This document shows positions 4,669 through 31,096 of a stretch of 31,096 nucleotides of DNA, one piece after another. Positions within the stretch are counted from its first letter, which is position 1, and each line of letters opens with the position of its first letter. A model generated the notes under the pieces. It was not told the origin of the DNA, made no database searches, and worked only from the letters and a program-made list of their open reading frames with translations. The position numbers were made by a program, and so were the translations under genes. Origin of the DNA: a virus; the IMG/VR virus record IMGVR_UViG_3300008120_000858, positions 1-31,096 of that record, one strand, 5' to 3'.

Positions 4669-5010
4669 ATGAACACTAAAGCATTTAAAAGATTAATTAA
4701 AGAAGCAGTAATCGATGCTATTCATGAAGAGTTACCATACATTCTTGAAGAGCATATGGCTAAACAAGAAAAAAAAGCATTACGTGAAGGTAGAACAATA
4801 AGTTTTACTAGCGCTGATGTACCAGTAGGTGCAGATACAAAATCTGCTTTACGTAGTAAAATGGGAGCTATGTTTGGGTATGATACACCTCAAGCACAAC
4901 CTAGTTTAAAAGTAGACCCAACTTCAGATAATCCATTTATGGCTTTTATTGAAGACGCTGGTGCTAATATGACTGCTCAAGACTTATCAGGATTAAGAAA
5001 CTTAGGATAA
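4669..5010 (+). CDS. Hypothetical protein upstream of gp25 (113 aa)
   Basis: I do not recognise this family. It begins MNTKAFKRLIKEAVIDAI, an amphipathic helix. A polar, probably disordered C-terminal half follows (PVGADTKSALRSKMGAMFGY, then Pro/Asp-rich sequence). It lacks a signal peptide and membrane segments. The gp25-like gene starts one base after its stop, so the two are almost certainly co-translated. Its context suggests a small baseplate or tail-assembly protein. Confidence 0.6.
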   Translation: MNTKAFKRLIKEAVIDAIHEELPYILEEHMAKQEKKALREGRTISFTSADVPVGADTKSALRSKMGAMFGYDTPQAQPSLKVDPTSDNPFMAFIEDAGANMTAQDLSGLRNLG

Positions 5011-15378: not shown

Positions 15379-16707
15379 ATGTCGGCGTTCAAAAAACTAA
15401 GCAAATCAGACGTTACGGTAGTACCCTATGCTGCTAATAAGCAATGGACTCTACCTTACTGTTCATATCCGACATCATCTGAGTACATTACAATCTATAA
15501 AGGAACTAATGTAACTGGTAGTTTTGACCTTAATACTGATCCAATTACTAACGGACAATACGAACGTTTAGTATATGATCAAATTAACCACTTATTTTAT
15601 CAAACGTATTCAGCTAGTTTAGATACTTCTTCACTAGCTAATTCTTTGTTTTATGAGTCTGCTTCACAACAGCGACCAACATCTTCTTATTTTATATATA
15701 ATGATAATGCTAATTTAATTAAATCATTCCCTACAGGGGCAATGAATAGCATTAAGGTAGTAGCTATTAATCAAGAAATTTACGGTAATAAAATATTACC
15801 TAACACTTTTGTTTTAACATCATCTGTTTATAATATTACTGATGATGGTTTTGGTAATTTATACAATTACGGTACTACACATATTGGAAATGTATTTTAT
15901 GCTCATGGTTTAGCTATTATAACAAATCAAGATTCACAATCAATATTTCCAGACCCACCATTTGCTTTACCAATTAATTTAACTTTCCCTGCTACAGCAT
16001 CTCCTTCATTTAACTATTCTAGTTATGTAAATGCTAGAGATTTTGAAATTGATGATACAACTTTAGTTTTATCTGGGAGTAATTTATTTGTAGACCAAGC
16101 AGGTCAAAATATTTTACTTAATACTAGTGCTTCAGGTGTATATGAAACATATTATCGAGTTGCAAGTAGAGATTTAGGATGTGGAAACATATATAGCAAC
16201 ACAGCTAAAATTACAGTTACCTTAACTAAAGTTACTGATTGTGATTTTAATGCTACTGGATCTTCATTTATTATAGGATGTGATTTTACAATAAGTGTAT
16301 CTAGTGTTGCACCACCTCCAACAACTCCATCTCCTACAACAGCGGCTCCAACAACTGCTGCTCCAACAACTGCTGCTCCTACAGCTGCACCTACAACAGT
16401 AGCTCCAACACCACCTCCAACACTATCTCCTACAGCAGCACCAACAACTGCTGCTCCAACAACTGCTGCTCCTACAGCATCACCGACAACAGCGGCACCT
16501 ACAACTGCTGCTCCAACAACAGCAGCTCCAACAACAGCTGCTCCAACCACAGCAGCACCGACAACTGCTGCTCCAACAACAGCAGCACCAACAACAGCTG
16601 CTCCTACACCTAACCCAACAACAGCCTCTCCTACCCCTAACCCTACAACTGCAGCACCTACAGCAGCACCATTTATTGACTTTACTATAGAAGAATTTTT
16701 TCCTTAA
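15379..16707 (+). CDS. Fibre/adhesin-like protein with Pro-Thr-Ala-rich C-terminal repeat
   Basis: In this 442-aa protein, residues 1-313 are beta-rich and globular, with an Ig-like or SprB-like stretch near 225-290 (DFEIDDTTLVLSGSNLFV, YETYYRVASRDLGCGN). Residues about 314-432 are almost pure PTTAA-type repeat, interrupted by a few TPPPTLSP and TPNP variants. A short acidic hydrophobic tail, IDFTIEEFFP, closes it. The repeat resembles a stiff, extended mucin-like linker, but here no large domain follows, so the C-terminal decapeptide may dock another protein. Likely a host-recognition component. The start is the ATG at 15379; a TAATG-overlapping ATG at 15375 is in another frame. Confidence 0.65.
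   Translation: MSAFKKLSKSDVTVVPYAANKQWTLPYCSYPTSSEYITIYKGTNVTGSFDLNTDPITNGQYERLVYDQINHLFYQTYSASLDTSSLANSLFYESASQQRPTSSYFIYNDNANLIKSFPTGAMNSIKVVAINQEIYGNKILPNTFVLTSSVYNITDDGFGNLYNYGTTHIGNVFYAHGLAIITNQDSQSIFPDPPFALPINLTFPATASPSFNYSSYVNARDFEIDDTTLVLSGSNLFVDQAGQNILLNTSASGVYETYYRVASRDLGCGNIYSNTAKITVTLTKVTDCDFNATGSSFIIGCDFTISVSSVAPPPTTPSPTTAAPTTAAPTTAAPTAAPTTVAPTPPPTLSPTAAPTTAAPTTAAPTASPTTAAPTTAAPTTAAPTTAAPTTAAPTTAAPTTAAPTTAAPTPNPTTASPTPNPTTAAPTAAPFIDFTIEEFFP
16318..16675 (+). repeat. PTTAA-coding 15-nt tandem repeat (first block)
   Basis: Degenerate tandem copies of a 15-nt unit of the form CCAACAACAGCAGCT encode Pro-Thr-Thr-Ala-Ala. Synonymous codons vary between units, so the amino-acid pattern is better conserved than the DNA. 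Confidence 0.85.
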
Positions 16708-16726
16708 TGATAAAATGATATAAAAA

Positions 16727-16738
16727 TATTTATAAATA
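16727..16738 (+). promoter_or_regulatory. TATTTATAAATA palindromic late-promoter-like motif
   Basis: TATTTATA (16727-16734) overlaps TATAAATA (16731-16738), the exact T4 late-promoter core in the sense direction, giving a palindrome. It ends 3 nt before the ATG at 16742. Confidence 0.5.
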
Positions 16739-16741
16739 ATA

Positions 16742-17791
16742 ATGGCAAGATATTTTAGAATAAGCATAACCGATACCAACCTAAATGGTCCTTTCGATGT
16801 CTATTACGGCATTGACGGTGTAGGTCCTTATGATTTTGCCTCATTATATAATAACCCACCTTTTGATCCTCCTCAAGATGCTGTAAACCAACCAAAATCA
16901 GCATTTACAGGAGGAAATAAACTTGAAGTTATAGTTCCTGATAATGCTTTATTTATATACATAATTCAAAATTCTCCATATGTAGAATCAAGAGTAGCAT
17001 TACCAGCTACCCCAGCTCCAACAACAGCAGCTCCAACTACGGCTGCACCTACAACTGCAGCTCCAACTCCACAACCAACTACAGCTGCACCAACCACCGC
17101 AGCACCAACTACAGCTGCTCCTACAACTGCTTCACCAACTACATCCGCTCCTACGACGGCTGCACCAACAACTGCTGCTCCTACAACTGCTTCTCCTACA
17201 ACTGCTTCTCCAACTACTGCTAGCCCAACTACAGCAGCTCCAACAACAGCGGCACCGACAACAGCAGCTCCAACAACAGCATCTCCTACAACAGCTAGTC
17301 CAACAACAGCATCACCTACAACTGCTTCTCCAACAACTGCAAGTCCAACAACCGCATCACCTACAACAGCAGCTCCAACAACGGCAGCTCCAACAACAGC
17401 GGCACCAACAACTGCTGCTCCAACACCACAACCTACAACTGCCGCACCTACAACTGCAGCTCCAACTACAGCTGCTCCTACTACACCTGCCCCTACTATA
17501 CCTCCAACTGGTGTAAGTTGTTATAATATATTCTTTACTTCATATACTATTGGAGAATGTTATTCTTTCCCTAATGAATATGAAAGTATGCAAACAGTAG
17601 GAATTGAATTATCAGGCTCTTCAATTGTTGATGTTTACATTAGTGGTTCTCTTACAGACGGAACTCCATTTGCCGAAACAATTCCAGCAGGATATAACGG
17701 TACTTATATAATTGCTAATAGAAGTTGTGGATGTTATTATGCTCAATGTTTAACTGGTAATGGTATTCAAGATATTTCTGTAACTGCTTAA
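16742..17791 (+). CDS. Fibre-like protein with PTTAA linker; frame continues past its stop
   Basis: This 349-aa protein has an N-terminal domain of about 88 residues (FRISITDTNLNGPFDVYYGI) related in layout to those at 23226 and 23903. A PTTAA linker spans about 89-258, with PTTAS variants. A Cys-containing C-terminal domain of about 90 residues follows (CYNIFFTSYTIGECYSFP, then SCGCYYAQC). The gene ends in TAA at 17789-17791, but the same frame stays open for 147 nt and runs straight into the next coding region, with sense codons like those of the neighbours. It may therefore be the first part of a longer protein split by a nonsense change, or one that undergoes readthrough. Confidence 0.65.
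   Translation: MARYFRISITDTNLNGPFDVYYGIDGVGPYDFASLYNNPPFDPPQDAVNQPKSAFTGGNKLEVIVPDNALFIYIIQNSPYVESRVALPATPAPTTAAPTTAAPTTAAPTPQPTTAAPTTAAPTTAAPTTASPTTSAPTTAAPTTAAPTTASPTTASPTTASPTTAAPTTAAPTTAAPTTASPTTASPTTASPTTASPTTASPTTASPTTAAPTTAAPTTAAPTTAAPTPQPTTAAPTTAAPTTAAPTTPAPTIPPTGVSCYNIFFTSYTIGECYSFPNEYESMQTVGIELSGSSIVDVYISGSLTDGTPFAETIPAGYNGTYIIANRSCGCYYAQCLTGNGIQDISVTA
17005..17516 (+). repeat. PTTAA/PTTAS-coding tandem repeat (second block)
   Basis: About 34 five-residue units encode Pro-Thr-Thr-Ala-Ala or Pro-Thr-Thr-Ala-Ser. The 15-nt units are imperfect, with frequent synonymous changes, and some neighbouring units (AGCAGCTCCAACAACAGC) are nearly identical, suggesting recent slippage. Confidence 0.85.
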
Positions 17792-17938
17792 AGATTTAAC
17801 TTTACAGGTGGCGTTGCCCCATATTCAGCAAGTATATCTAGAGATGCTAACGGTAATCCTATTTGGGCATATACTAATATTACTTCAACACCATTTGATG
17901 CTACATCAGTACCATCAGGACAAATTTATTATCCTGTT

Positions 17939-18574
17939 ATGAAAGATGCTGTTGGAACAATTGTTGAAGGATCTCCAATGTATGATTGTGCTACGTTAGA
18001 TACAACATTTAAAGTTGTTCCATTAAATAATTTAGCATCAGCTAATATTTACTATCCACCAATTCTTGTTTCTGGTTCACAAAACAAAGGAACAAGCTTT
18101 ACAGCTACAGGAAGTAGAGGAACATTGATAGGAGTAACATCATTGGTTGATTCGGGAACAACGTTTATTGGTTGGTCTTATGATTCTAGCAGTAGATCAG
18201 GCATATTCTCATCATCTACTACACTTCAAGTTCCATTAACAACTACAGGTAGTACTATTTATGCTTTAGTTGATAGAAATGTAATTTCAGCTTCATTCTG
18301 TTATTATAACAGTGATCCAATAGGAACTGCAGAGTGTGAAGCTTGTGCTGTTACTAAAACTCTTTATTATAATGCTTTTTCAGTAACAGGTTCTAACTAC
18401 GCTGGTGTAACATGGTTTAAAGATGTTAACTTAACTACAACAGCAGATGCTGGTTATTATAAATTAGTAGAAAGTATTCCAAAAATTAGTAACCCAATTT
18501 ACCAAGTATCAGCAGGACCTGTACAAACTAGAACATTAACTGGTTTCTGTTTAGATTCAACTCTAACATGTTAA
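17939..18574 (+). CDS. Fibre-like C-terminal fragment, in frame with the preceding gene
   Basis: From the first ATG this would be a 211-aa beta-rich protein with internal Cys (SASFCYYNSDPIGTAECEAC). The frame is open back to 17792, directly after the preceding stop, and the extra 49 codons read like real protein (RFNFTGGVAPYSASISRD, with a GG..PYS pattern recalling SprB-type adhesin repeats). No ribosome site is visible before the ATG at 17939, and only a poor AATTTATTA resemblance to the gene-start motif is present. I think it is the distal part of the 16742 gene, or a gene whose own 5' end was lost, rather than an independent gene starting here. Confidence 0.5.
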   Translation: MKDAVGTIVEGSPMYDCATLDTTFKVVPLNNLASANIYYPPILVSGSQNKGTSFTATGSRGTLIGVTSLVDSGTTFIGWSYDSSSRSGIFSSSTTLQVPLTTTGSTIYALVDRNVISASFCYYNSDPIGTAECEACAVTKTLYYNAFSVTGSNYAGVTWFKDVNLTTTADAGYYKLVESIPKISNPIYQVSAGPVQTRTLTGFCLDSTLTC

Positions 18575-18576
18575 AA

Positions 18577-18584
18577 TATTTATA
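18577..18584 (+). promoter_or_regulatory. TATTTATA gene-start motif
   Basis: Exact octamer in the 18-nt gap, 8 nt before the ATG at 18593, followed by AGTAGTATATG. Confidence 0.45.
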
Positions 18585-18592
18585 AGTAGTAT

Positions 18593-21500
18593 ATGCCCTT
18601 AAATAACTCAACAAATATTAGCTTTTCAGCAGGTAATTTTACCAGCAGTACTCCTATTGGAGGGCAAGAAGCTCTTACTGGATTTGGTGTAAATACTTCT
18701 TCCAATTATAGATGGGCTAATAAAACAGCACAGTTAAATTTAGGTAATACTGATTATGGTTATGTAATGTTTGATATTAGTTATACTGTAACAGGAACAG
18801 CAGATATTGTTGGTATTTCTTTTGCAGGTCCTGACATGCCTGTAAGTTATTCTACAACATTAAGTGGATTATTTAAACCATTAGTGGATGGTACTTATCT
18901 TAAACTTACAGCAGGTGTTACTACAAGAATATATGCTATAGTTAACGCAACTAAAAAATCAAACTTATTACCAATTACTTTAACTGTAGGTAGAAGAGGA
19001 TCTCTTCCATCAAATGTAACAGTTAATATTCAATATAATTGTACTGATGTAGGTCCTTTATATTCTTATTTATGTGGATTACACGTATATTCTCCATATG
19101 ATGCTGCTAATACACCTACATTACAAACTTATTTATATTCTTATACTCCTATAGGTTCATGGGCTAATAATACAGAATTATATGCAAGTCCAAACTTTAC
19201 CCAACCAGCATATCCTTATTATTATAGTTATGGTAGCAATGTTTATAAGGTAGGAGATGAATTAGAAAGATCTTTTGGAGAAAAAAGATATATATATGTA
19301 GAAAAGAAATGGGCTCTTGGAAACACCAGAACATACAATAGAGTAGAAGGTCCTCAATCTTGGAAAGGCAGAGATAGAAATGGTTTTACAACGCAAAACT
19401 TTGTATATCCTACTATGAATAATATAGGAAGGTTAAGACAAATACTACCTGCAGCTTCATTATCTCAACCTTCTTCTTATAGATATTATTTAGGAGCAGA
19501 TTCTAATGCACAGTCTGCTGCTGATTTTTTTACCCAATTTGATTTTAATAATAGACAAGTACATACTGTTACTGGTTACGTACATGCTCTTCAAAGATTA
19601 TCAAGGGGATTTGCAAGTGGATATTATAAAGATTTAAAATTTCAAGATTGGGATAAATTTGCAGTTACTGTAGCATTGCTTGGTCTAGCAGTTTATGATT
19701 TTTTATATGTAGGATTTGATGCAACGGGGTGGGGAAAAATAGCCACATCTTTAGCTAGATTTGATGTTTGGATTAATTCAACTGCTACTAAAAGTGCCGG
19801 AAGTAATTTATTTGGAAATATATTCGGTCCTTTTTCAGTTCCTCTAATCAAAATATTTATAATTGTAGCTGCAGCTTATGCTATATATTTATTAACTCGA
19901 AGTACTAGAGAAACTATTGAAGAACCTTTAATAACACTTAAATATAGATATGCAAATACTCCTTATTTAAATAATGGAACTAGATTATATACCAATACAG
20001 GATTAACAACATATATATCAGAATATTATTGTGATGGTATATATTTTTATAATCAGTTAACAGGAAGCACAATATCTAATAAAGAAATATCTTATTCATT
20101 AAATGCCTTATTAGATTTAGATCCTTTACAAAAAGGATTAGCATATTCAATTGCTGCAGACCAACCAGATTCTGGATCTGTAATTTTTGATTTTAGTAAA
20201 TTATTAGCTTTACCTTATTGTTCTGGTAAGCCTGATACTGTAAGTAGTACAAATACCAATGTATCTCAAAGTGTTTCTTTTCCTCCTTTAAATTTAGGTG
20301 GTGATTTATTAACATATCCTGCATCTGTAACAATATCCCTACCAGAAGGATCAATCGTTACTACTGGTTCTCAAGCAGATGCAAATGCAGAAGCTTTACA
20401 ATATTTAAATCAATTAACAGGATCTTATGTTTCTGGGAGTTATGGTACTCCTAAAACAGGAAGTGCTGCATTTGGTGCTTACTTTACTCATGAAATTAAA
20501 GTAGAAAGTACTCCTAATACAGGAAGTGTTTTCTTTGATAATACTAACGGAGCGGGCTTAACAGTAGGTAAATCTTTATATTATGATATAGGAGGATTCC
20601 AAAAAGTATTTAATGGTTACTATGCTGCAGACTCAGGAAGTGTATCTCCTTATAGTAATTATAGAACATTCTTTAAAACAGTTAATGGTGCTGTAACAGA
20701 TATATTAGCAATGGGATCATCAGGGGCTACAACAGTAACTTCTGTTATTAATAGTGCTACTTATCCTGTACAAACATCAAATCAAAATTATACTAGTGAT
20801 TGGTATTGGTATCAACCATCTTATAATGAATTAAGTGCTGATATTCCTTATGTAACAAATCTTTATGTAAATCCAAATTCATTATATACTACATCTTCTT
20901 TAAAATCAGGATTTTTATTACCAAATACTTCTTCATTTTATACTTATGATAGTATTTCAAGTACTTCAAGTTATACTGAAGCTACACCTGGTTTCTATTA
21001 TGCTTTTACTTCGTATGAAAATGGATATATGTTTGCTTATAGTACAGCAACTACAATATCAATTAATCTAACTGAAGTTTGCTTTACAGATTATGCTGTA
21101 GGTGAACCTTATGGTGTTAACATAAGTGGTGCTACAGGATCTGCTTCATCTTCATTCTACTACCCAGTAAACTTAACATTAAGTGCATATAATGGAGGAA
21201 GTCTATTAACTTCATTCCCAGCAACTGCCTCTTCTGAAGGTGTAACTTATGTCAGCTTTCCAGCTCCAATAACAAAAGATTCAAATGTTACTAATGTAAC
21301 AATGACTATTGACTCTGCTAATCCTAATAACAAAGTATTATACATAACAGGATCATTTGTAAACTGTAACCCAACAACACCTGCTCCAACACCTAATCCT
21401 ACTACAGCTGCTCCAACACCAAACCCAACAGCTCCATTTAGTGCTATTGTTTCATACTCAAATCTAACAGCTCAAGACGCTTGTGATAATCCACAAGGTA

Positions 21501-22981
21501 GCTTTAGCATGACAGGTAATAACGGTACTTTCTGTTTATCATCTGCTTATACAGCAACTAACTGGACTACTCTACCACAAACAACTTACTGGCTTTCATA
21601 TGATGGTCAAGTTAGACAAGTATACCATCCAGCTAATTCTAACACAGTAACAACTATTAATGCATGTGCTGATTGTCCTACTCCAAACCCAACTCCTAAC
21701 CCCACAACAGCAGCTCCAACAACAGCTGCTCCAACACCTAATCCAACAACAGCTGCTCCAACACCAAATCCAACAACTCCAGCACCAACAACAGCAGCTC
21801 CAACACCATTAGTTACTGAATTAAATGGATTTGTAAGTATAATTGGCGGTGCTGAGGCTTGTAGTGGTGGTGAATACGGAGAAGTAAGATTTGATGTTAG
21901 TGGAACTACATTATGTGATGCTACTTCTATAGTATATCTTCCATCATCTGTTTGGTCAGACTTTATTTTCAACCAAGAATTCTATGTAAGTGATAGAGTA
22001 AGTAGTGTGTTTAAATCTAGGAAATTTAGAAGAAATGGTAATAACAATACAGCATCTCCACTTTTAGCTTGTGAAGATTGTCCTACTCCAAATCCAACAC
22101 CAAACCCAACAACTGCTGCACCAACTCCTAATCCAACAACTGCTGCTCCAACAAACCCTCCTACTCCACCACCAACCAATCCTCCAACTCCACCTCCAAC
22201 AGCTCCATTTAGTGCTATAGTTTCTTACTCAAATCTAACAGCTTTAGATGCTTGTAGTAACCCTCAAGGTAGCTTCAGTATGACTGGTAATAATGGTACC
22301 TTCTGTTTATCATCTGCTTATACTGCTACAAACTGGACTTCATTACCTCAAACAACTTATTGGTTAGCTTATAACGGCCAAGTTAGACAAGTATACCACC
22401 CAGCTAACTCAAATACAGTAACAACTATTAATGCATGTGCTGATTGTCCTACTCCAAATCCAACACCAAACCCAACAACTGCTGCCCCAACTAATCCTCC
22501 AACCCCTCCACCAACAAATCCCCCAACTCCACCACCAACCAATCCTCCAACTCCTCCTCCAACACCACCACCAACACCACCACCAACAACACCTCCAACT
22601 CCACCACCAACTAATCCACCAACACCACCACCAACACCAAATCCAACAACAATACCTTATTTCTATTATAATGTAACTCCATGTTTTAGTGGCGGTGGTT
22701 TAATTGCTAGAAGTACAGATGATGGATTAAATGGAGTTTATACTGCAAACGGAACTTGTTATATAATAGATGGAATTGCAATTCCACAAGCATATGACTT
22801 TACTATAGATCCAGCAAACTATGTAGGAGGTTCATGCTTTGTTTCAGCATGTGGATATACACCACCAACACCATCACCAGCACCAGCAGAACTTTATATC
22901 TGTGATCCATTTATAGGATGTTATCAAGATCCATTGGGTGATTCATATAATATAGTATGCTTAAATTGTGATCAAGTTTAA
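18593..22981 (+). CDS. Giant modular fibre/adhesin protein with triplicated Cys modules
   Basis: The largest product here, 1462 residues. The N-terminal about 340 residues are beta-rich. Two hydrophobic segments follow at about 357-376 (FAVTVALLGLAVYDFLYVGF) and 413-436 (VPLIKIFIIVAAAYAIYLLT), unusual in a fibre. Another beta-rich region extends to about 925. The distal third consists of Cys-containing modules separated by PTTAA/PTPNP/PPTNP linkers: a module at about 947-1029, a divergent one at 1072-1164 and a near copy of the first at 1204-1286. A final module (YFYYNVTPCFSGGGLIARST) resembles the end of the 23226 protein. The protein ends in a Cys-rich tail. It is probably the main receptor-binding or adhesive appendage. 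Complete, with no frameshift. Confidence 0.65.
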   Translation: MPLNNSTNISFSAGNFTSSTPIGGQEALTGFGVNTSSNYRWANKTAQLNLGNTDYGYVMFDISYTVTGTADIVGISFAGPDMPVSYSTTLSGLFKPLVDGTYLKLTAGVTTRIYAIVNATKKSNLLPITLTVGRRGSLPSNVTVNIQYNCTDVGPLYSYLCGLHVYSPYDAANTPTLQTYLYSYTPIGSWANNTELYASPNFTQPAYPYYYSYGSNVYKVGDELERSFGEKRYIYVEKKWALGNTRTYNRVEGPQSWKGRDRNGFTTQNFVYPTMNNIGRLRQILPAASLSQPSSYRYYLGADSNAQSAADFFTQFDFNNRQVHTVTGYVHALQRLSRGFASGYYKDLKFQDWDKFAVTVALLGLAVYDFLYVGFDATGWGKIATSLARFDVWINSTATKSAGSNLFGNIFGPFSVPLIKIFIIVAAAYAIYLLTRSTRETIEEPLITLKYRYANTPYLNNGTRLYTNTGLTTYISEYYCDGIYFYNQLTGSTISNKEISYSLNALLDLDPLQKGLAYSIAADQPDSGSVIFDFSKLLALPYCSGKPDTVSSTNTNVSQSVSFPPLNLGGDLLTYPASVTISLPEGSIVTTGSQADANAEALQYLNQLTGSYVSGSYGTPKTGSAAFGAYFTHEIKVESTPNTGSVFFDNTNGAGLTVGKSLYYDIGGFQKVFNGYYAADSGSVSPYSNYRTFFKTVNGAVTDILAMGSSGATTVTSVINSATYPVQTSNQNYTSDWYWYQPSYNELSADIPYVTNLYVNPNSLYTTSSLKSGFLLPNTSSFYTYDSISSTSSYTEATPGFYYAFTSYENGYMFAYSTATTISINLTEVCFTDYAVGEPYGVNISGATGSASSSFYYPVNLTLSAYNGGSLLTSFPATASSEGVTYVSFPAPITKDSNVTNVTMTIDSANPNNKVLYITGSFVNCNPTTPAPTPNPTTAAPTPNPTAPFSAIVSYSNLTAQDACDNPQGSFSMTGNNGTFCLSSAYTATNWTTLPQTTYWLSYDGQVRQVYHPANSNTVTTINACADCPTPNPTPNPTTAAPTTAAPTPNPTTAAPTPNPTTPAPTTAAPTPLVTELNGFVSIIGGAEACSGGEYGEVRFDVSGTTLCDATSIVYLPSSVWSDFIFNQEFYVSDRVSSVFKSRKFRRNGNNNTASPLLACEDCPTPNPTPNPTTAAPTPNPTTAAPTNPPTPPPTNPPTPPPTAPFSAIVSYSNLTALDACSNPQGSFSMTGNNGTFCLSSAYTATNWTSLPQTTYWLAYNGQVRQVYHPANSNTVTTINACADCPTPNPTPNPTTAAPTNPPTPPPTNPPTPPPTNPPTPPPTPPPTPPPTTPPTPPPTNPPTPPPTPNPTTIPYFYYNVTPCFSGGGLIARSTDDGLNGVYTANGTCYIIDGIAIPQAYDFTIDPANYVGGSCFVSACGYTPPTPSPAPAELYICDPFIGCYQDPLGDSYNIVCLNCDQV
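21431..21678 (+). repeat. Intragenic module repeat, copy 1
   Basis: A 248-nt stretch that recurs 771 nt downstream (22202-22449) at the same length. The encoded domain (SAIVSYSNLTAQDACDNPQG to ACADCP) differs by only a few residues from its partner, while many third-codon positions differ, so the duplication is not recent. Confidence 0.85.
22202..22449 (+). repeat. Intragenic module repeat, copy 2
   Basis: Partner of 21431-21678. Between them lies a diverged third relative, about 21807-22084, recognised by its GGAEACSGG and final ACEDCPTPNP. Confidence 0.85.
22450..22657 (+). repeat. Pro-rich PPTNP/PTTAA linker repeat
   Basis: A C- and A-rich low-complexity stretch encoding PTPNPT, PTTAAP and then repeated NPPTPPPT units between the last two domains of the giant fibre-like protein. 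Frames other than the + coding frame give only low-complexity shadows. Confidence 0.8.
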
Positions 22982-22993
22982 AAATAAAACCTT

Positions 22994-23233
22994 ATGATAT
23001 ATTATAAATTAACAACAGATGTAGGTCCCGTTTATAGATCATTTGATAGTGAAAGCTATCTAGTAATAGAATTATTTAATGGGACTAATACACACAAAAG
23101 AATGGCTAAAACACAAACACTAAGTCTTTATAATGCTTTAATGACAAAAACAATTGACAGTGGGTTTGTGGAAACAACAGAAGAAGAATTTACATTGAAT
23201 AAAACTGAAATACTAAGTATTTTAAATGGCTAA
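22994..23233 (+). CDS. Small hypothetical protein in fibre cassette (79 aa)
   Basis: Unrecognised. The 79-residue protein begins MIYYKLTTDVGPVYRSFDSE and ends in an acidic helical part (FVETTEEEFTLNKTEILSIL). It has no Cys, linker repeat, signal peptide or membrane segment, unlike its neighbours. The 8-nt overlap with the next gene suggests coupled translation. A small assembly factor or chaperone for the flanking fibre proteins is plausible from context, similar to the small fibre-assembly genes found beside phage tail fibres. There is no direct evidence. Confidence 0.55.
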   Translation: MIYYKLTTDVGPVYRSFDSESYLVIELFNGTNTHKRMAKTQTLSLYNALMTKTIDSGFVETTEEEFTLNKTEILSILNG

Positions 23234-23888
23234 TTATTACATAACAGTAACCCCAGTTGATGCATTAAGTACTAGTACTTACAGTATTTACTTTGATGAA
23301 GTAAAACCTAGTAATTTAATGTTAAGTGGTGTACCTTTAAGTACATTAAGCGGAGGTCTTCTAGTTTATTTTACGGGAAGTGCTGCTAGTGCAACTTCTG
23401 TTTATGTAAAAAATGAAGATCCTGATTGTTGTTGTTCTGTACAATCTTTTGTATTCCCTACACCATCACCAACAACAGCTCCAACTCCTAACCCAACCAC
23501 AGCCTCTCCAACTACATCTGCACCTACAACTGCTTCTCCAACAACAGCAGCACCTACAACGATCGCTCCAACTACGGCTGCTCCAACAACAGCAGCACCA
23601 ACAACACCAACTCCAACAGCACCACCTCCAGTAGGTCCAACTTATTATTATTATAATGTTTCTAAATATCAGTGTAACTTCCCATCAGGACCTTGTACTT
23701 TAGTAGAAACTGGATTAGTTGCTAGATCAAATAATGTTTTAGTAACAACTGGATATTACTATAATCCATTCGGGGATGGATTTGCATACTTACCAACAAA
23801 CGAAATAACACCAGCACCAATAACATATGATCTTAACTTTGTTGATGCTCCTGGTGATATGGATTGTGTAGCTGCTTGCAGTATATAA
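23226..23888 (+). CDS. Fibre-like protein: N-domain, PTTAA linker, C-module
   Basis: This 220-aa protein has three clear parts. The N-terminal domain of about 77 residues (YYITVTPVDALSTSTYSIYF) ends in a DCCCS motif shared with the 23903 protein. A PTTAA/PTPNP linker spans about 78-136. The C-terminal module of about 84 residues (YYYYNVSKYQC, GLVARSNN, CVAACSI) is related to the end of the giant 18593 protein (YFYYNVTPCFSGGGLIARST). It therefore looks like a minimal version of the modular adhesins in this cassette, and modules seem to be exchanged across the linkers. Probably a virion surface protein. Confidence 0.65.
   Translation: MANYYITVTPVDALSTSTYSIYFDEVKPSNLMLSGVPLSTLSGGLLVYFTGSAASATSVYVKNEDPDCCCSVQSFVFPTPSPTTAPTPNPTTASPTTSAPTTASPTTAAPTTIAPTTAAPTTAAPTTPTPTAPPPVGPTYYYYNVSKYQCNFPSGPCTLVETGLVARSNNVLVTTGYYYNPFGDGFAYLPTNEITPAPITYDLNFVDAPGDMDCVAACSI
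23457..23633 (+). repeat. PTTAA/PTPNP-coding tandem repeat (last block)
   Basis: Degenerate 15-nt units encode PTTAA, PTTAS and PTPNP between two Cys-containing domains of the 23226 gene. Confidence 0.8.
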
Positions 23889-26718: not shown

Positions 26719-29700
26719 ATGAAAAAAGCGATTCTATCGTTGATTCTTTCTGCATTCGCATTGGTTGGATTTGGTCAAATCACCACTTCCTCCATTTCGG
26801 GTGTCGTTAAGAATGAGAAGCAAGAAGTGTTAGCTGGAGCTACGATCCATGCTACCCACGTTCCGACGGGTACTGAGTACAAGACCCAAGCAAACAAATC
26901 TGGTGTGTTTGTTTTACCTGCTATTAGAGTAGGTGGACCTTACACTATCCATGCCTCCTTTGTAGGTTACAAAAAAGGAGAAGTAACTGATGTAAACACT
27001 CAATTGGGTGTAACATCAAACGTAGATTTTATCTTAATTGATGAAGCTAAAGCTCTTAAAGAAGTAATTGTTAGCGGTACTCGCAATAACATCTTCTCTA
27101 AAGAAAAAACTGGAGCAGCACAACAATTTGGAAGAAGAGAATTAACTTCTATTCCAATTACAGGTGCTAGAACAATTGATGGTATTACCAAGTACAATCC
27201 ATTTGGTAATGGTTCTTCATTTGGCGCTCAAGATTCTCGTTTGAATAACTTTACAATCGATGGATCTCAGTTTAACAATAACTTTGGTTTAGGATCTTCA
27301 GCAGCAGCTGGTGGTCGTACAGGCGCTTCAGCAATTTCACTTGACGCGATTGAGCAGCTACAAGTTAACGTAGCACCATTTGACATTCGTCAATCTGGAT
27401 TTACAGGTGCTGGTATTAATGCTGTTACAAGATCAGGTACAAACGAAATTGAAGGTAGTATTTATCAAACACAACGTGATAACTCATCTCGTTATGTGGG
27501 TGATAATGCACGTGGTACAACAGTTACAGCAGCTAAATTTGATGAAAAAGTACAAGGCTTTAGATTAGGTTTACCTGTTATTAAAAACAAATTATTCTTG
27601 TTTGGTAACTATGAAGGCATTGTAAGAACTGAACCAGGCACAACTTGGATTTCAGCAGGATCTCCACTTACAGGTACACAAGTATCTCGTGTGAAATACT
27701 CTGATATGCAAACTTTATCTCAATTTATGAAAGATAAGTTTAATTATGTAACTGGTCCTTGGGAAGGTTATTCAAACCAAAACTCATCAAATAAATTTTT
27801 GATTAGAGCTGACTGGAATATTAACGATAAAAATAAATTAACTGCTCGTTATGTTCACCATAATTCATCTGCAGAGATTAATATTTCAAACTCCCAATCA
27901 GCGGGTGCTGGTAACAGAACAACTCAGTTTAATGCTATGAGTTTCCAAAATAGTGGCTACATTATTATGGATAACACTCGTTCAGCAGTATTAGAATTAA
28001 ACTCTAAACTATCTAATACTTTACACAATAACTTAATCGTTTCTTACGATAAGCAAATTGAAGATAGAGCATATATGAGCCAAATGTTCCCAACTATTGA
28101 TATTAGAGAAGGTTCAGCAACTTACACTTCTGTAGGTTTTGACCCATTTACTCCTGGTAACAAATTGAATTATTCAACTATAAATGTAACTAATAACTTA
28201 ACTAAGTATTTAGATAAACATACGTTAGTAGGTGGTTTTAATTTCCAAAGTTATGAATCAAATAACTTGTTCTATCCAGCATCTAATGGTGTTTATATCT
28301 TTAATTCATTAGCAGATTTTTATAAAGCAGCAAACGAAAGTTTAGCTAACGGTGGTAAACCATCTACAACTTTACCTGCTAGATTTCAGTTAAGATATTC
28401 AGCATTACCTGGAGCAGTTGAACCAATGCAAACTTTAAGATCTTATAGAACTGATTTGTATTTCCAAGATGAATACGCAGCAACTAAAGATTTGAAATTA
28501 ACATTTGGTTTAAGAGCAAATATTATTGAATTTGAAAATACAGCTCTAGAAAATCCTGTAATTACATTGATGACTTTTGCAAACGGTGAAAAATTCAATA
28601 CAGGTGACATGCCTAAAACACAATTGTTATTCGAACCTCGTTTCGGATTTAACTACGATGTTAAAGGTGAAAAGAAAACACAAATTAGAGGTGGTACTGG
28701 AGTATTCACAGGTAGACCTCCTTATGTATTCATTTCCAACCAAGTAGGTAATAATGGTAGATTAACAGGATTTATTGATGTTAGTGGTGCTGGTGCTGCT
28801 GGATATGGTTTCACAGCAAACCCAAATCAATATTTTATTCCATCAACTCCAACATTGCCATCAACATTTGATTTAGCTTTAACAGATGCTAATTATAAGT
28901 TTCCACAAGTTTGGAAAAATAATATCGCTGTTGATCAAAAATTACCTTGGTTAGGTTTAATTGCTAGTGTTGAATTATTATATAATAAAACACTTAACGC
29001 AGTTCATTATTATAATGCTAACCTAGATAAACCAGTTGGTAAATTAGGTGGTGTAGATCAAAGACCCCTTTATGCAGGTAATGATAATGGTGTTCGTGTA
29101 AACGATAACGTATCAATGGCTGCTGTGTTAACTAACAGAAATGGTGCTTATAATAAATCAGCAACATTCAAATTAGAAAAACCAGTATCTAAAGGACTTT
29201 GGGGTTATGTAGCTTATACTACATCAGATGCTCAAGACTTTATGGATGCAGGTTCAATTGCAAGTGGTTCTTGGCAATCAGCATTATCAGTTAATGGTAA
29301 TAATGATTTAGGTTTAACAACTTCATCATTTCTAGTAAGAAACCGTATTGTAGGTTTATTAGGATATAGATTAGATTACGGTAAGAAAGGTGGTGGTGCA
29401 ACTACATTCACATTAGGATATGTAGGTTCACAAAACAATCCATTCTCTTATATCGTAGCTGGTGACTTAAATGGTGATAGAGTATCTAATAATGATTTGT
29501 TATTTGTACCAAACAAAGGTTCAGATGTTAAATTTGCACCATTAACAGTGGGTACAACAGTTTATACTGAAGCTCAACAACAAGATGCATTTGAAAAATT
29601 CATCGCTCAAGATCCATATTTGTCAACTCGCAGAGGTCAATATGCTGAAAGAAATGCTTTAGCATTACCTTTCTTACATAGATTTGACTTATCAGTAGCT

Positions 29701-29991
29701 CAAGATGTATTTGTTAAGATTAAAGGTAAGCGCAATGCTTTCCAAATCAGAGCAGATATCTTGAACTTTGGTAATATGTTGAACAATAAATGGGGTGTTT
29801 CTCAAAGAGCTGGTGCTCCACAATTGTTGAACTTTGTAAGCCGCGACGCTGCAGGTGTTCCAACATATAGATTGTCAACTCAAAGAGATGCAACTAGCAC
29901 ATTCCTAGCAAAAGACACATATCAATACAATTCATCTGTATTTGATGTTTGGACTGCTCAGTTAGGTATTCGCTATACCTTCGGTAGATAA
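26719..29991 (+). CDS. TonB-dependent outer-membrane receptor, Oar-like, phage-borne
   Basis: A complete 1090-aa Bacteroidota-type receptor. Residues 1-20 are a signal peptide (MKKAILSLILSAFALVGFGQ). A carboxypeptidase-regulatory-like domain covers about 24-110 (SISGVVKNEKQEVLAGATIH, FVGYKKGEV). The plug follows from about 115 (LKEVIVSGTRN, RRELTSIPITGARTIDGI, NNFTIDGSQFNN, GINAVTRSGTNEIEGSIY). The remainder is a beta-barrel with the usual aromatic strands, a DLNGDRVSNNDLLFVPNKGS loop and a C-terminal strand QLGIRYTFGR. The layout matches Oar-like TonB receptors, which take up or bind large substrates with TonB. The leader (AACCAAAAACAAAACAG) is A-rich, as in Bacteroidota genes. The first about 180 codon-region bases are richer in G+C than the rest. 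Both sides are phage genes on the same strand. Its role in infection is unknown. Confidence 0.9.
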   Translation: MKKAILSLILSAFALVGFGQITTSSISGVVKNEKQEVLAGATIHATHVPTGTEYKTQANKSGVFVLPAIRVGGPYTIHASFVGYKKGEVTDVNTQLGVTSNVDFILIDEAKALKEVIVSGTRNNIFSKEKTGAAQQFGRRELTSIPITGARTIDGITKYNPFGNGSSFGAQDSRLNNFTIDGSQFNNNFGLGSSAAAGGRTGASAISLDAIEQLQVNVAPFDIRQSGFTGAGINAVTRSGTNEIEGSIYQTQRDNSSRYVGDNARGTTVTAAKFDEKVQGFRLGLPVIKNKLFLFGNYEGIVRTEPGTTWISAGSPLTGTQVSRVKYSDMQTLSQFMKDKFNYVTGPWEGYSNQNSSNKFLIRADWNINDKNKLTARYVHHNSSAEINISNSQSAGAGNRTTQFNAMSFQNSGYIIMDNTRSAVLELNSKLSNTLHNNLIVSYDKQIEDRAYMSQMFPTIDIREGSATYTSVGFDPFTPGNKLNYSTINVTNNLTKYLDKHTLVGGFNFQSYESNNLFYPASNGVYIFNSLADFYKAANESLANGGKPSTTLPARFQLRYSALPGAVEPMQTLRSYRTDLYFQDEYAATKDLKLTFGLRANIIEFENTALENPVITLMTFANGEKFNTGDMPKTQLLFEPRFGFNYDVKGEKKTQIRGGTGVFTGRPPYVFISNQVGNNGRLTGFIDVSGAGAAGYGFTANPNQYFIPSTPTLPSTFDLALTDANYKFPQVWKNNIAVDQKLPWLGLIASVELLYNKTLNAVHYYNANLDKPVGKLGGVDQRPLYAGNDNGVRVNDNVSMAAVLTNRNGAYNKSATFKLEKPVSKGLWGYVAYTTSDAQDFMDAGSIASGSWQSALSVNGNNDLGLTTSSFLVRNRIVGLLGYRLDYGKKGGGATTFTLGYVGSQNNPFSYIVAGDLNGDRVSNNDLLFVPNKGSDVKFAPLTVGTTVYTEAQQQDAFEKFIAQDPYLSTRRGQYAERNALALPFLHRFDLSVAQDVFVKIKGKRNAFQIRADILNFGNMLNNKWGVSQRAGAPQLLNFVSRDAAGVPTYRLSTQRDATSTFLAKDTYQYNSSVFDVWTAQLGIRYTFGR

Positions 29992-30006: not shown

Positions 30007-30014
30007 TATTTATA
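30007..30014 (+). promoter_or_regulatory. TATTTATA motif fused to hairpin
   Basis: Exact octamer just downstream of the receptor stop. Its final A is the first base of the following hairpin, so a transcript starting from it would begin within the hairpin. Confidence 0.35.
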
Positions 30015-30050
30015 GGTGGCTTGGTCTATCCAAGTCACCTATTTATTTTT
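30014..30050 (+). terminator. Rho-independent terminator after receptor gene
   Basis: Arms AGGTGGCTTGG (30014-30024) and CCAAGTCACCT (30030-30040) form an 11-bp stem with one G-T pair and a TCTAT loop, followed by ATTTATTTTT. It closes the receptor transcription unit. With the hairpin at 26669 it isolates the receptor gene from its neighbours. Confidence 0.8.
30040..30047 (+). promoter_or_regulatory. TATTTATT motif before kinase gene
   Basis: Variant octamer formed by the T-rich tail of the terminator, 7 nt before the ATG at 30055. A dual use of the tail as terminator and gene-start signal is possible, but the tract is low complexity. Confidence 0.25.
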
Positions 30051-30054
30051 ACGT

Positions 30055-30822
30055 ATGATCAAGTTACTAGATTTATTAAAAGAAGCACAAATCAAACCAA
30101 AAGCCATATTCCTGGCTGGTCCTGCGGGATCTGGTAAGACATTCACTTCTGCTCAATTAATACCGAAAAATTTAACTGTTATTAATGTTGATGACACTTA
30201 TGAGGAATTACTTAAAGCAGCAGGTTTAGGCTTAAAAGTAGCAGATTTCGATCAGGATCAATTATCGCAAGCGGGTAAATTAATGGGTCAAGCTCAAAAA
30301 GCTACTAAAGAAAAATATGCACAATTATCCGCTGCTAAACAAAATATTGTTATAGATGGTACAGGTGCTGCTAGTAAACCACTATTAAAGAAAAAACAAG
30401 AATTAGAAGCATTAGGCTACGATACAATGATGATTATGATTTGGGTTTCACCTTATACATCATTACAACGCAATGCTGATCGTATCAAAGCGGGAGGCCG
30501 TTCATTACCACCTGCTATTGTTATTAAAACATGGGCTGGGGTAAATGCTAATATAGACAATTATAAACAAGCATTTGGTGATAAATTTGTATTAATTAAT
30601 AATGATCCTGAAGGTGAATTAGAATATGATCCTGCTGTTGCTAGAGAAAGATTCTTTAAAACAGTTAAAGGAAGTGGTAAGGTTTATACACCAGATGAGA
30701 AAGCAAAGCGCGACAAAGAAATATTAGACTTAAATACTGCAGTACAAACATTAGTTAAAAGAACACCAGAATTTACATCTATAGACGATGCTAAATCTAA
30801 AATAAGTAACTTTCTCAAATGA
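30055..30822 (+). CDS. P-loop kinase, zeta-toxin / polynucleotide-kinase-like
   Basis: This 255-aa protein has a Walker A motif GPAGSGKT at residues 22-29, a following INVDD segment, a hydrophobic NIVIDGTGA strand at about 98-106 (candidate Walker B-like region), and an Arg-rich lid (SLQRNADRIKAGGRSLP). This layout fits the zeta-toxin/AAA_33 small-molecule or nucleic-acid kinases common in large phages. The substrate cannot be told. The ATG at 30055 is chosen over an in-frame GTG at 30016, because that GTG lies inside the terminator stem. The N-terminus, MIKLLDLLKEA, is nearly identical to that of the next protein, suggesting a shared targeting or cleavage peptide. The stop overlaps the next start (ATGA). 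Confidence 0.75.
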   Translation: MIKLLDLLKEAQIKPKAIFLAGPAGSGKTFTSAQLIPKNLTVINVDDTYEELLKAAGLGLKVADFDQDQLSQAGKLMGQAQKATKEKYAQLSAAKQNIVIDGTGAASKPLLKKKQELEALGYDTMMIMIWVSPYTSLQRNADRIKAGGRSLPPAIVIKTWAGVNANIDNYKQAFGDKFVLINNDPEGELEYDPAVARERFFKTVKGSGKVYTPDEKAKRDKEILDLNTAVQTLVKRTPEFTSIDDAKSKISNFLK

Positions 30823-31096
30823 TTAAGCTATTAGATATATTGAAAGAATCTATATTAGAAGCTAAGTATGAAGATGTAGCAGTTATACCTGCAAAAGGTA
30901 CCCAAAGAGGCACATCAGAATCAGGCGTTAAATCATTTGACATTAATATTGGAAATATTGACGTTATTAAAAAAATGGCTAAAACACCTATGGGTAGTGC
31001 AGGATCAGCAAAATCCTTTAGTTACGAAGGTCCTGGAGGTAAAACATATTCAGATTTTAGTTGGGAAGAGAATACAAGTCAATGGGATGTTTGGAA
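30819..31096 (+). CDS. Partial hypothetical protein sharing the MIKLLD-LLKE leader
   Basis: The gene starts at 30819 by ATGA overlap with the kinase stop and runs off the end of the window, leaving 92 complete codons. The visible part begins MIKLLDILKESILEAKYEDV, matching the kinase's MIKLLDLLKEA. It continues as a polar, Gly/Ser-rich domain (PMGSAGSAKSFSYEGPGGKT) with no recognised motif. The shared N-terminal helix followed by unrelated sequence suggests a detachable leader. The function and total length cannot be known from this window. Confidence 0.6.
   Translation, partial: MIKLLDILKESILEAKYEDVAVIPAKGTQRGTSESGVKSFDINIGNIDVIKKMAKTPMGSAGSAKSFSYEGPGGKTYSDFSWEENTSQWDVW

Follow-up and report, generated by a model that had tools for sequence, protein, structure and literature searches.

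The leader and its two genes

Why do two adjacent, otherwise unrelated phage proteins begin with nearly the same ten residues? The proteins that phages inject into their hosts are mostly unknown, because finding them has required virion proteomics of cultured phages. If an injection tag could be read from sequence, thousands of uncultivated genomes would yield lists of predicted injected effectors, counter-defence candidates among them. The locus lies in IMG/VR record IMGVR_UViG_3300008120_000858, which we analyzed over its entire 31,096 bases (the window). This T4-like phage contig encodes a baseplate wedge protein, tail-fibre genes, a primase, an outer-membrane-barrel gene and, at its right end, the two leader genes. 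Several consecutive tail-region proteins (16300 to 23800) carry long (P)TTAAPTTA-type threonine/proline repeats. Directly before the leader genes, positions 26719 to 29991 encode a 1,090-aa outer-membrane beta-barrel protein with a carboxypeptidase-regulatory domain (PF25183, PF13620), a type typical of Bacteroidota hosts. A terminator-like hairpin on the plus strand at 30012 to 30042 (13-bp stem, 5-base loop, and the T-run tail TTATTTTT) stands between this upstream gene and the leader genes.

Translation from the ATG at 30055 gives a 255-aa P-loop kinase (N-terminus, MIKLLDLLKEAQ), whose first ten residues, MIKLLDLLKE (30055 to 30084, plus strand), form a predicted capsid-targeting sequence with a predicted cut after E10, giving the junction MIKLLDLLKE↓AQIKPKAIFLAGPAGSGKT (arrows mark the cut position). 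The predicted mature kinase body (30085 to 30819, plus strand) is of the Zeta_toxin/AAA_33 type, with matches to PF06414 (E = 9e-14; 51.8 bits against a cut-off of 22.3) and PF13671 (E = 9e-8) and the Walker A motif GPAGSGKT. The second leader, MIKLLDILKE (30819 to 30848, plus strand), is likewise a predicted capsid-targeting sequence; its start codon and the kinase stop codon share an ATGA overlap. The protein that it opens begins MIKLLDILKESILEAKYED (MIKLLDILKE↓SILEAKYED), and its reading frame runs off the contig end, so that only the beginning of this second cargo protein (30849 to 31094, plus strand; about 233 aa in relatives) is present. It has no assigned function, it had no match in PHROGs or Pfam, and its AlphaFold model (mean pLDDT of 36) was too poor for a fold search. 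Both leaders end in an (L/I)-x-E motif, LKE↓A and LKE↓S. The near-identity of the two N-termini, first noticed in a sequence-only reading of this DNA, was confirmed: a degenerate codon pattern for the leader matched the window at 30055 and 30819 only and at no site in 100 shuffles.

The leader occurs on dozens of unrelated protein families

Whether other proteins share this N-terminus bears directly on the earlier suggestion that it is a targeting peptide, and the answer is clear, since dozens of unrelated families carry it. We gathered 80 related contigs by kinase similarity and compared the N-termini of their proteins. The leader sits on many unrelated proteins in these contigs; under a stricter pattern, 190 distinct proteins fell into 34 clusters with no similarity beyond the leader detectable by blast. 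We also scanned all of IMG/VR, independently of the kinase, with a degenerate DNA pattern of the leader, using the peptide in reversed order as the control. The leader pattern matched at least 120 stretches, compared with 3 for the control. In 80 loci among the matches listed, each of the 98 leader matches coincided with the beginning of a reading frame; 92 of the encoded proteins reached a length of 45 aa, and these formed 39 blast-unrelated families. A propeptide-like N-terminal leader of about ten residues is thus common to otherwise unrelated proteins in both searches (about 34 and 39 families). Chance was considered as the origin of the leader and rejected on the shuffles, the reversed-order control, and an internal-methionine control (below).

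The same pattern gave 10 matches in a 257-Gb collection of cellular genomes, mostly in metagenome-assembled contigs. Three leader matches lie on one 5.3-kb contig binned as Rickettsiaceae (JAIOYD010000128.1), which is probably a misbinned phage fragment. No earlier report of the leader in environmental phages was found in the literature searched, which lay outside subscription journals and preprints.

The leader follows the residue grammar of the T4 capsid-targeting sequence

In phage T4, ten residues of internal protein IPIII are enough for packaging, and mutagenesis of the capsid-targeting sequence has assigned targeting to residues 4 and 7 and processing to residues 8 and 10; the prohead protease gp21 cuts after (L/I)xE, and Asp at position 10 blocks processing (PMC9026906). 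We expressed these rules as a position-locked pattern, M-x-x-phi-x-x-phi-phi-x-E (hydrophobic at 4, 7, and 8; Glu at 10). Both window leaders fit it, with the targeting residues (4 and 7), the processing residues (8 and 10), and the terminal (L/I)-x-E all in place. Across the leader families, position 8 is L or I in 99% of family weight. When position 10 was left free, Glu was found there in about 34 of the 45 families (~75%; binomial P of ~1e-28 at a 7% background), and Asp was rare, in line with the Asp10 block of T4 processing (PMC9026906). The sequence-only reading had also pointed to the protein at 4669 (MNTKAFKRLIKEA) as a possible further bearer of the leader. This was not supported: the protein belongs to a baseplate operon, and we excluded it because its Glu is residue 12 and is part of a longer, conserved helix, which does not fit the position-locked pattern.

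On T4 itself, the pattern selects six predicted frames: IPII, IPIII, Alt, gp24 (the gp21-cleaved vertex protein), gp61.1, and a 68-aa frame at 9 kb. T4 IPI is not matched by the position-locked pattern; its leader, judged by sequence, is longer and of the STITE↓A type. The gp61.1 protein (NC_000866, 18966 to 19130, minus strand) starts MKTFKEFIKE↓D, which fits the capsid-targeting grammar; the protein may be an internal head component that has gone unrecognised.

The leaders described here share with those of IPI, IPII, IPIII, and Alt a length of ten residues at the N-terminus, hydrophobic side chains at positions 4, 7, and 8, a Glu10, an (L/I)xE end, and attachment to unrelated proteins, in genomes with an S77 protease and gp22/gp23 (here, in relatives). 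They differ in sequence (MIKLxDILxE, compared with MKTYQEFIAE in T4), in being clustered beside head genes, and in being found on roughly 40 families, spanning many kinds of enzyme, rather than on four proteins. Head packaging is known in T4 and is predicted here.

The ten-residue rule is not universal, since some leaders have Asp at position 10 (MIKLTEILQD) or place the motif at other offsets. The 4/7/8/10 grammar also accommodates a second class of leader, RMQxLAGI(I/L)TE, which occurs in L145, at other scaffold loci, in the Flavobacterium phage immuto (MW353175.1; 25061 and 111675), and in genomes G005 (54916, 58919, and 152021) and G004 (100178). In the same genomes, a near-identical peptide (RWQMLAGIK, WQKLAGIIK, or NRMQFYAGIKK) forms the end of a gp22-like scaffold protein and of another cluster protein, and this cargo leader may mimic the scaffold peptide.

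Leader genes are clustered beside the prohead protease and capsid genes

Because the 31-kb record ends before the protease and capsid region, we assessed the S77 protease and gp23 in relatives. In five near-complete relatives, the genes with leaders occupy the interval from the kinase to the capsid gene, and the order leads into the large terminase, portal (gp20), S77 protease (gp21), scaffold (gp22), and gp23. The prohead protease and capsid that the earlier reading had called for are thus present, about 20 kb downstream, and gp23 carries a conserved propeptide whose end, L-V-(T/Q)-E↓A, falls where T4 gp23 is cut. The protease was found in 14 of 20 and 14 of 28 leader-bearing records, including all 8 of the 8 records of at least 105 kb.

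Strict leaders begin 18 of the 148 genes in the kinase-to-capsid cluster of the five genomes and 4 of the 760 genes elsewhere (P = 1e-11), with a shuffled expectation of 0.2 and an internal-Met control of 4/3365. The looser motif [LI]xE occurs within residues 5 to 24 of 91/148 cluster genes and 151/760 others (P = 6e-23). A tighter form, [LIVMFA][LI]xE, is clearly enriched at residues 5 to 26 of cluster proteins and showed no enrichment at residues 80 to 102 of the same proteins in the five genomes. An unbiased positional profile of the cluster proteins revealed an excess of Glu at positions 10, 13, and 16 and, at 7 and 8, an excess of hydrophobic residues that was only modest; many cluster proteins therefore appear to have leaders of other lengths.

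The cluster also adjoins the baseplate genes on its other side, and contractile injection systems have short N-terminal cargo signals, so the leader might instead direct assembly into a different part of the virion (the tail tube, baseplate, or portal) and be left uncut by the prohead protease. We regard this as unlikely. The S77 protease accounts for the Glu10 requirement and the (L/I)xE end, which a tail signal would leave unexplained; the T4 internal head proteins and gp24 have this grammar, and the capsid propeptide has a similar end, VTE↓A.

Longer propeptides are found on the head ejection proteins of phiKZ and SPN3US. As predicted here, many ejected head proteins of these phages are cut after Glu by a gp21-related protease (PMC9026906). 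The motif is (S/A)xE in phiKZ, and the proteins belong to a giant-phage inner body. Another comparison is offered by Immutovirus (Flavobacterium phage vB_FspM_immuto_2-6A), a cultured relative with a 62% identical capsid. It has leaders such as MIKLIDLLTE, MISIYNILKE, and MGNLADLLLE but fewer of the MIKL type, and no homologue of the kinase was found in it by tblastn. Its availability on Flavobacterium makes the capsid-targeting reading testable now.

The peptide, rather than its DNA, is conserved

The two window leaders differ at 5 of 30 nucleotides, of which 4 are silent and 1 changes L to I. The 30 nucleotides upstream of each leader have no evident similarity, and a recent duplication of the 5' DNA was rejected on that ground. 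The kinase leader is kept in most of the 80 related loci. In full-length homologues of the second protein the leader is also kept, with L4, L8, K9, and E10 invariant; E14, A15, and K16 of this protein are invariant as well (n = 5 sequences), and an additional cut after residue 14 (ILE↓A, around 30860) is possible.

These comparisons bear on a second alternative, in which the leader is a cis-acting 5' coding element (for translation initiation or coupling, or as a recombination cassette) and the peptide has no targeting role. The two leader genes are indeed translationally coupled through the ATGA overlap, and leader genes are modular, with the same downstream domains found with different inserts behind the leader. 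However, the leader DNA varies mostly at silent sites while the peptide is kept, leaders of identical peptide sequence differ between families at about 4 of 30 nucleotides, and the leader is N-terminal in overlapping and non-overlapping genes alike. In distant phages, homologues also keep the grammar with other residues: the kinase homologues of Methylophilales and Pelagibacter phages start MKTFAELQE↓G and MIPFILKE↓G, with a similar end, and a cyanophage cytidylyltransferase starts MKNFSSFLTE↓A. We consider a purely cis-acting role very doubtful.

Proteins with similar leaders are present in cyanophage virions

According to Table 3 of PMC10665884, mass spectrometry of S-CREM2 virions detected a SAM hydrolase, an APH-like kinase, a cytidylyltransferase, and several unknowns. 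The first two start MKDFDSFLEE and MKRFDAFLTE, the cytidylyltransferase has the start given above, and the virion-detected gp13 and gp136 start MKDLHSFLTE and MQTFSMFFSE. Among annotated S-CREM2 proteins, 5 of the 7 that have a position-locked leader were in virions, compared with 47 of the 212 others (P = 0.009), and the S-CREM2 capsid carries LLTE↓A. Near the N-terminus of a Cas9-like protein reported in S-CREM2 virions (OR473000, 7704 to 10313, minus strand) is a leader-like FASFMAE↓A. The NMNAT in the S-SCSM1 virion list (PMC9602691) starts MKSFLQFLKE↓A, and S-SM1 virions are listed as also holding a cytidylyltransferase (PMC3037559). The non-structural virion proteins of these three cyanophages resemble the predicted cargo here in that they include NMNAT/cytidylyltransferases, kinases, and other enzymes, many with M(K/Q)xFxxFLTE-type leaders, which are phenylalanine-rich and fewer per genome than those described here. 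The authors of the virion papers did not describe the leaders in the text consulted, and they caution that virion lists may include abundant contaminants. If the present reading is correct, the tag would explain the virion enzymes reported there as possible contaminants (NMNAT, kinases, and SAM hydrolase).

A proposed model for head packaging and injection

Sequence, gene context, T4 genetics, and cyanophage mass spectrometry converge, and we consider it highly probable that the leader is a T4-type capsid-targeting sequence, cut by the S77 protease, on proteins packaged with DNA and ejected into the host. The earlier suggestion of capsid targeting is supported, as a prediction, by the 4/7/8/10 grammar, the cluster position, the gp23 propeptide, and the cyanophage virion proteins. 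T4 work has shown that a leader of this grammar targets and is cut (PMC9026906), and cyanophage work places proteins with such leaders in virions; for the phages studied here, we infer binding, cleavage, and injection. During prohead assembly, the leader would bind the scaffold core, mainly through its hydrophobic residues 4 and 7, and would pull unrelated enzymes into the head, here the P-loop kinase and its translationally coupled neighbour. The S77 prohead protease would then cut after Glu10 of (L/I)-x-E, the leader would be lost, and the mature proteins would be packaged with DNA and ejected at infection. The dozens of tagged families in the cluster beside the head genes would constitute a predicted set of injected effectors.

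The leader helix is amphipathic (by eye, from sequence), but it is highly improbable that the helix serves to hold proteins close to the inner membrane or to a replication compartment in the infected cell, given that it has no signal-peptide-like hydrophobic core, that strict Glu10 would be left unexplained, that the tagged genes adjoin head genes, and that proteins of such grammar occur in purified virions.

Under the capsid-targeting reading, these aquatic phages probably carry an enzyme set injected together with their DNA, because the tag is on about 40 unrelated families and follows the T4 head-packing rule. A broader proposal, which we find plausible and on balance favor, is that the 4/7/8/10 grammar serves T4-like phages generally as a capsid-import code, readable from sequence, that would predict the injected proteins of each phage, including a large exchangeable set in the uncultivated phages related to Immutovirus. 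That set would comprise kinases, a class III nucleotide cyclase, NMNATs, and ADP-ribosyltransferase-like and Acb1-like proteins.

Predicted cargo

The leader families include P-loop kinases, the NMNAT/cytidylyltransferase family, a class III nucleotide cyclase, and many proteins of no assigned function, a set that resembles effectors more than structural proteins. Weak matches, to be taken as leads only, were to a polyvalent-protein-type kinase, a 2H/Acb1-like phosphoesterase, a Tpt1-like protein, and a PBECR3 nuclease-like protein. The 2H-phosphoesterase-like protein (L291, 96 to 635, minus strand) weakly matches the anti-CBASS protein Acb1 (E = 4e-4). Leader proteins with WYHGS or YHAT motifs are ADP-ribosyltransferase-like by eye only, and the AlphaFold model of the WYHGS family (mean pLDDT of 47) was too poor for a fold search. 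In locus L002 (14438 to 15088), MIKLLDILKE stands on a class III adenylate/guanylate cyclase (PF00211; E of about 2e-23) that is ended by the contig edge and is possibly an injected phage cyclase. Within the cluster, an NMNAT-like gene whose leader is MNLGQYLVQQLLE↓A comes after the kinase, and in genome G004 it does so directly.
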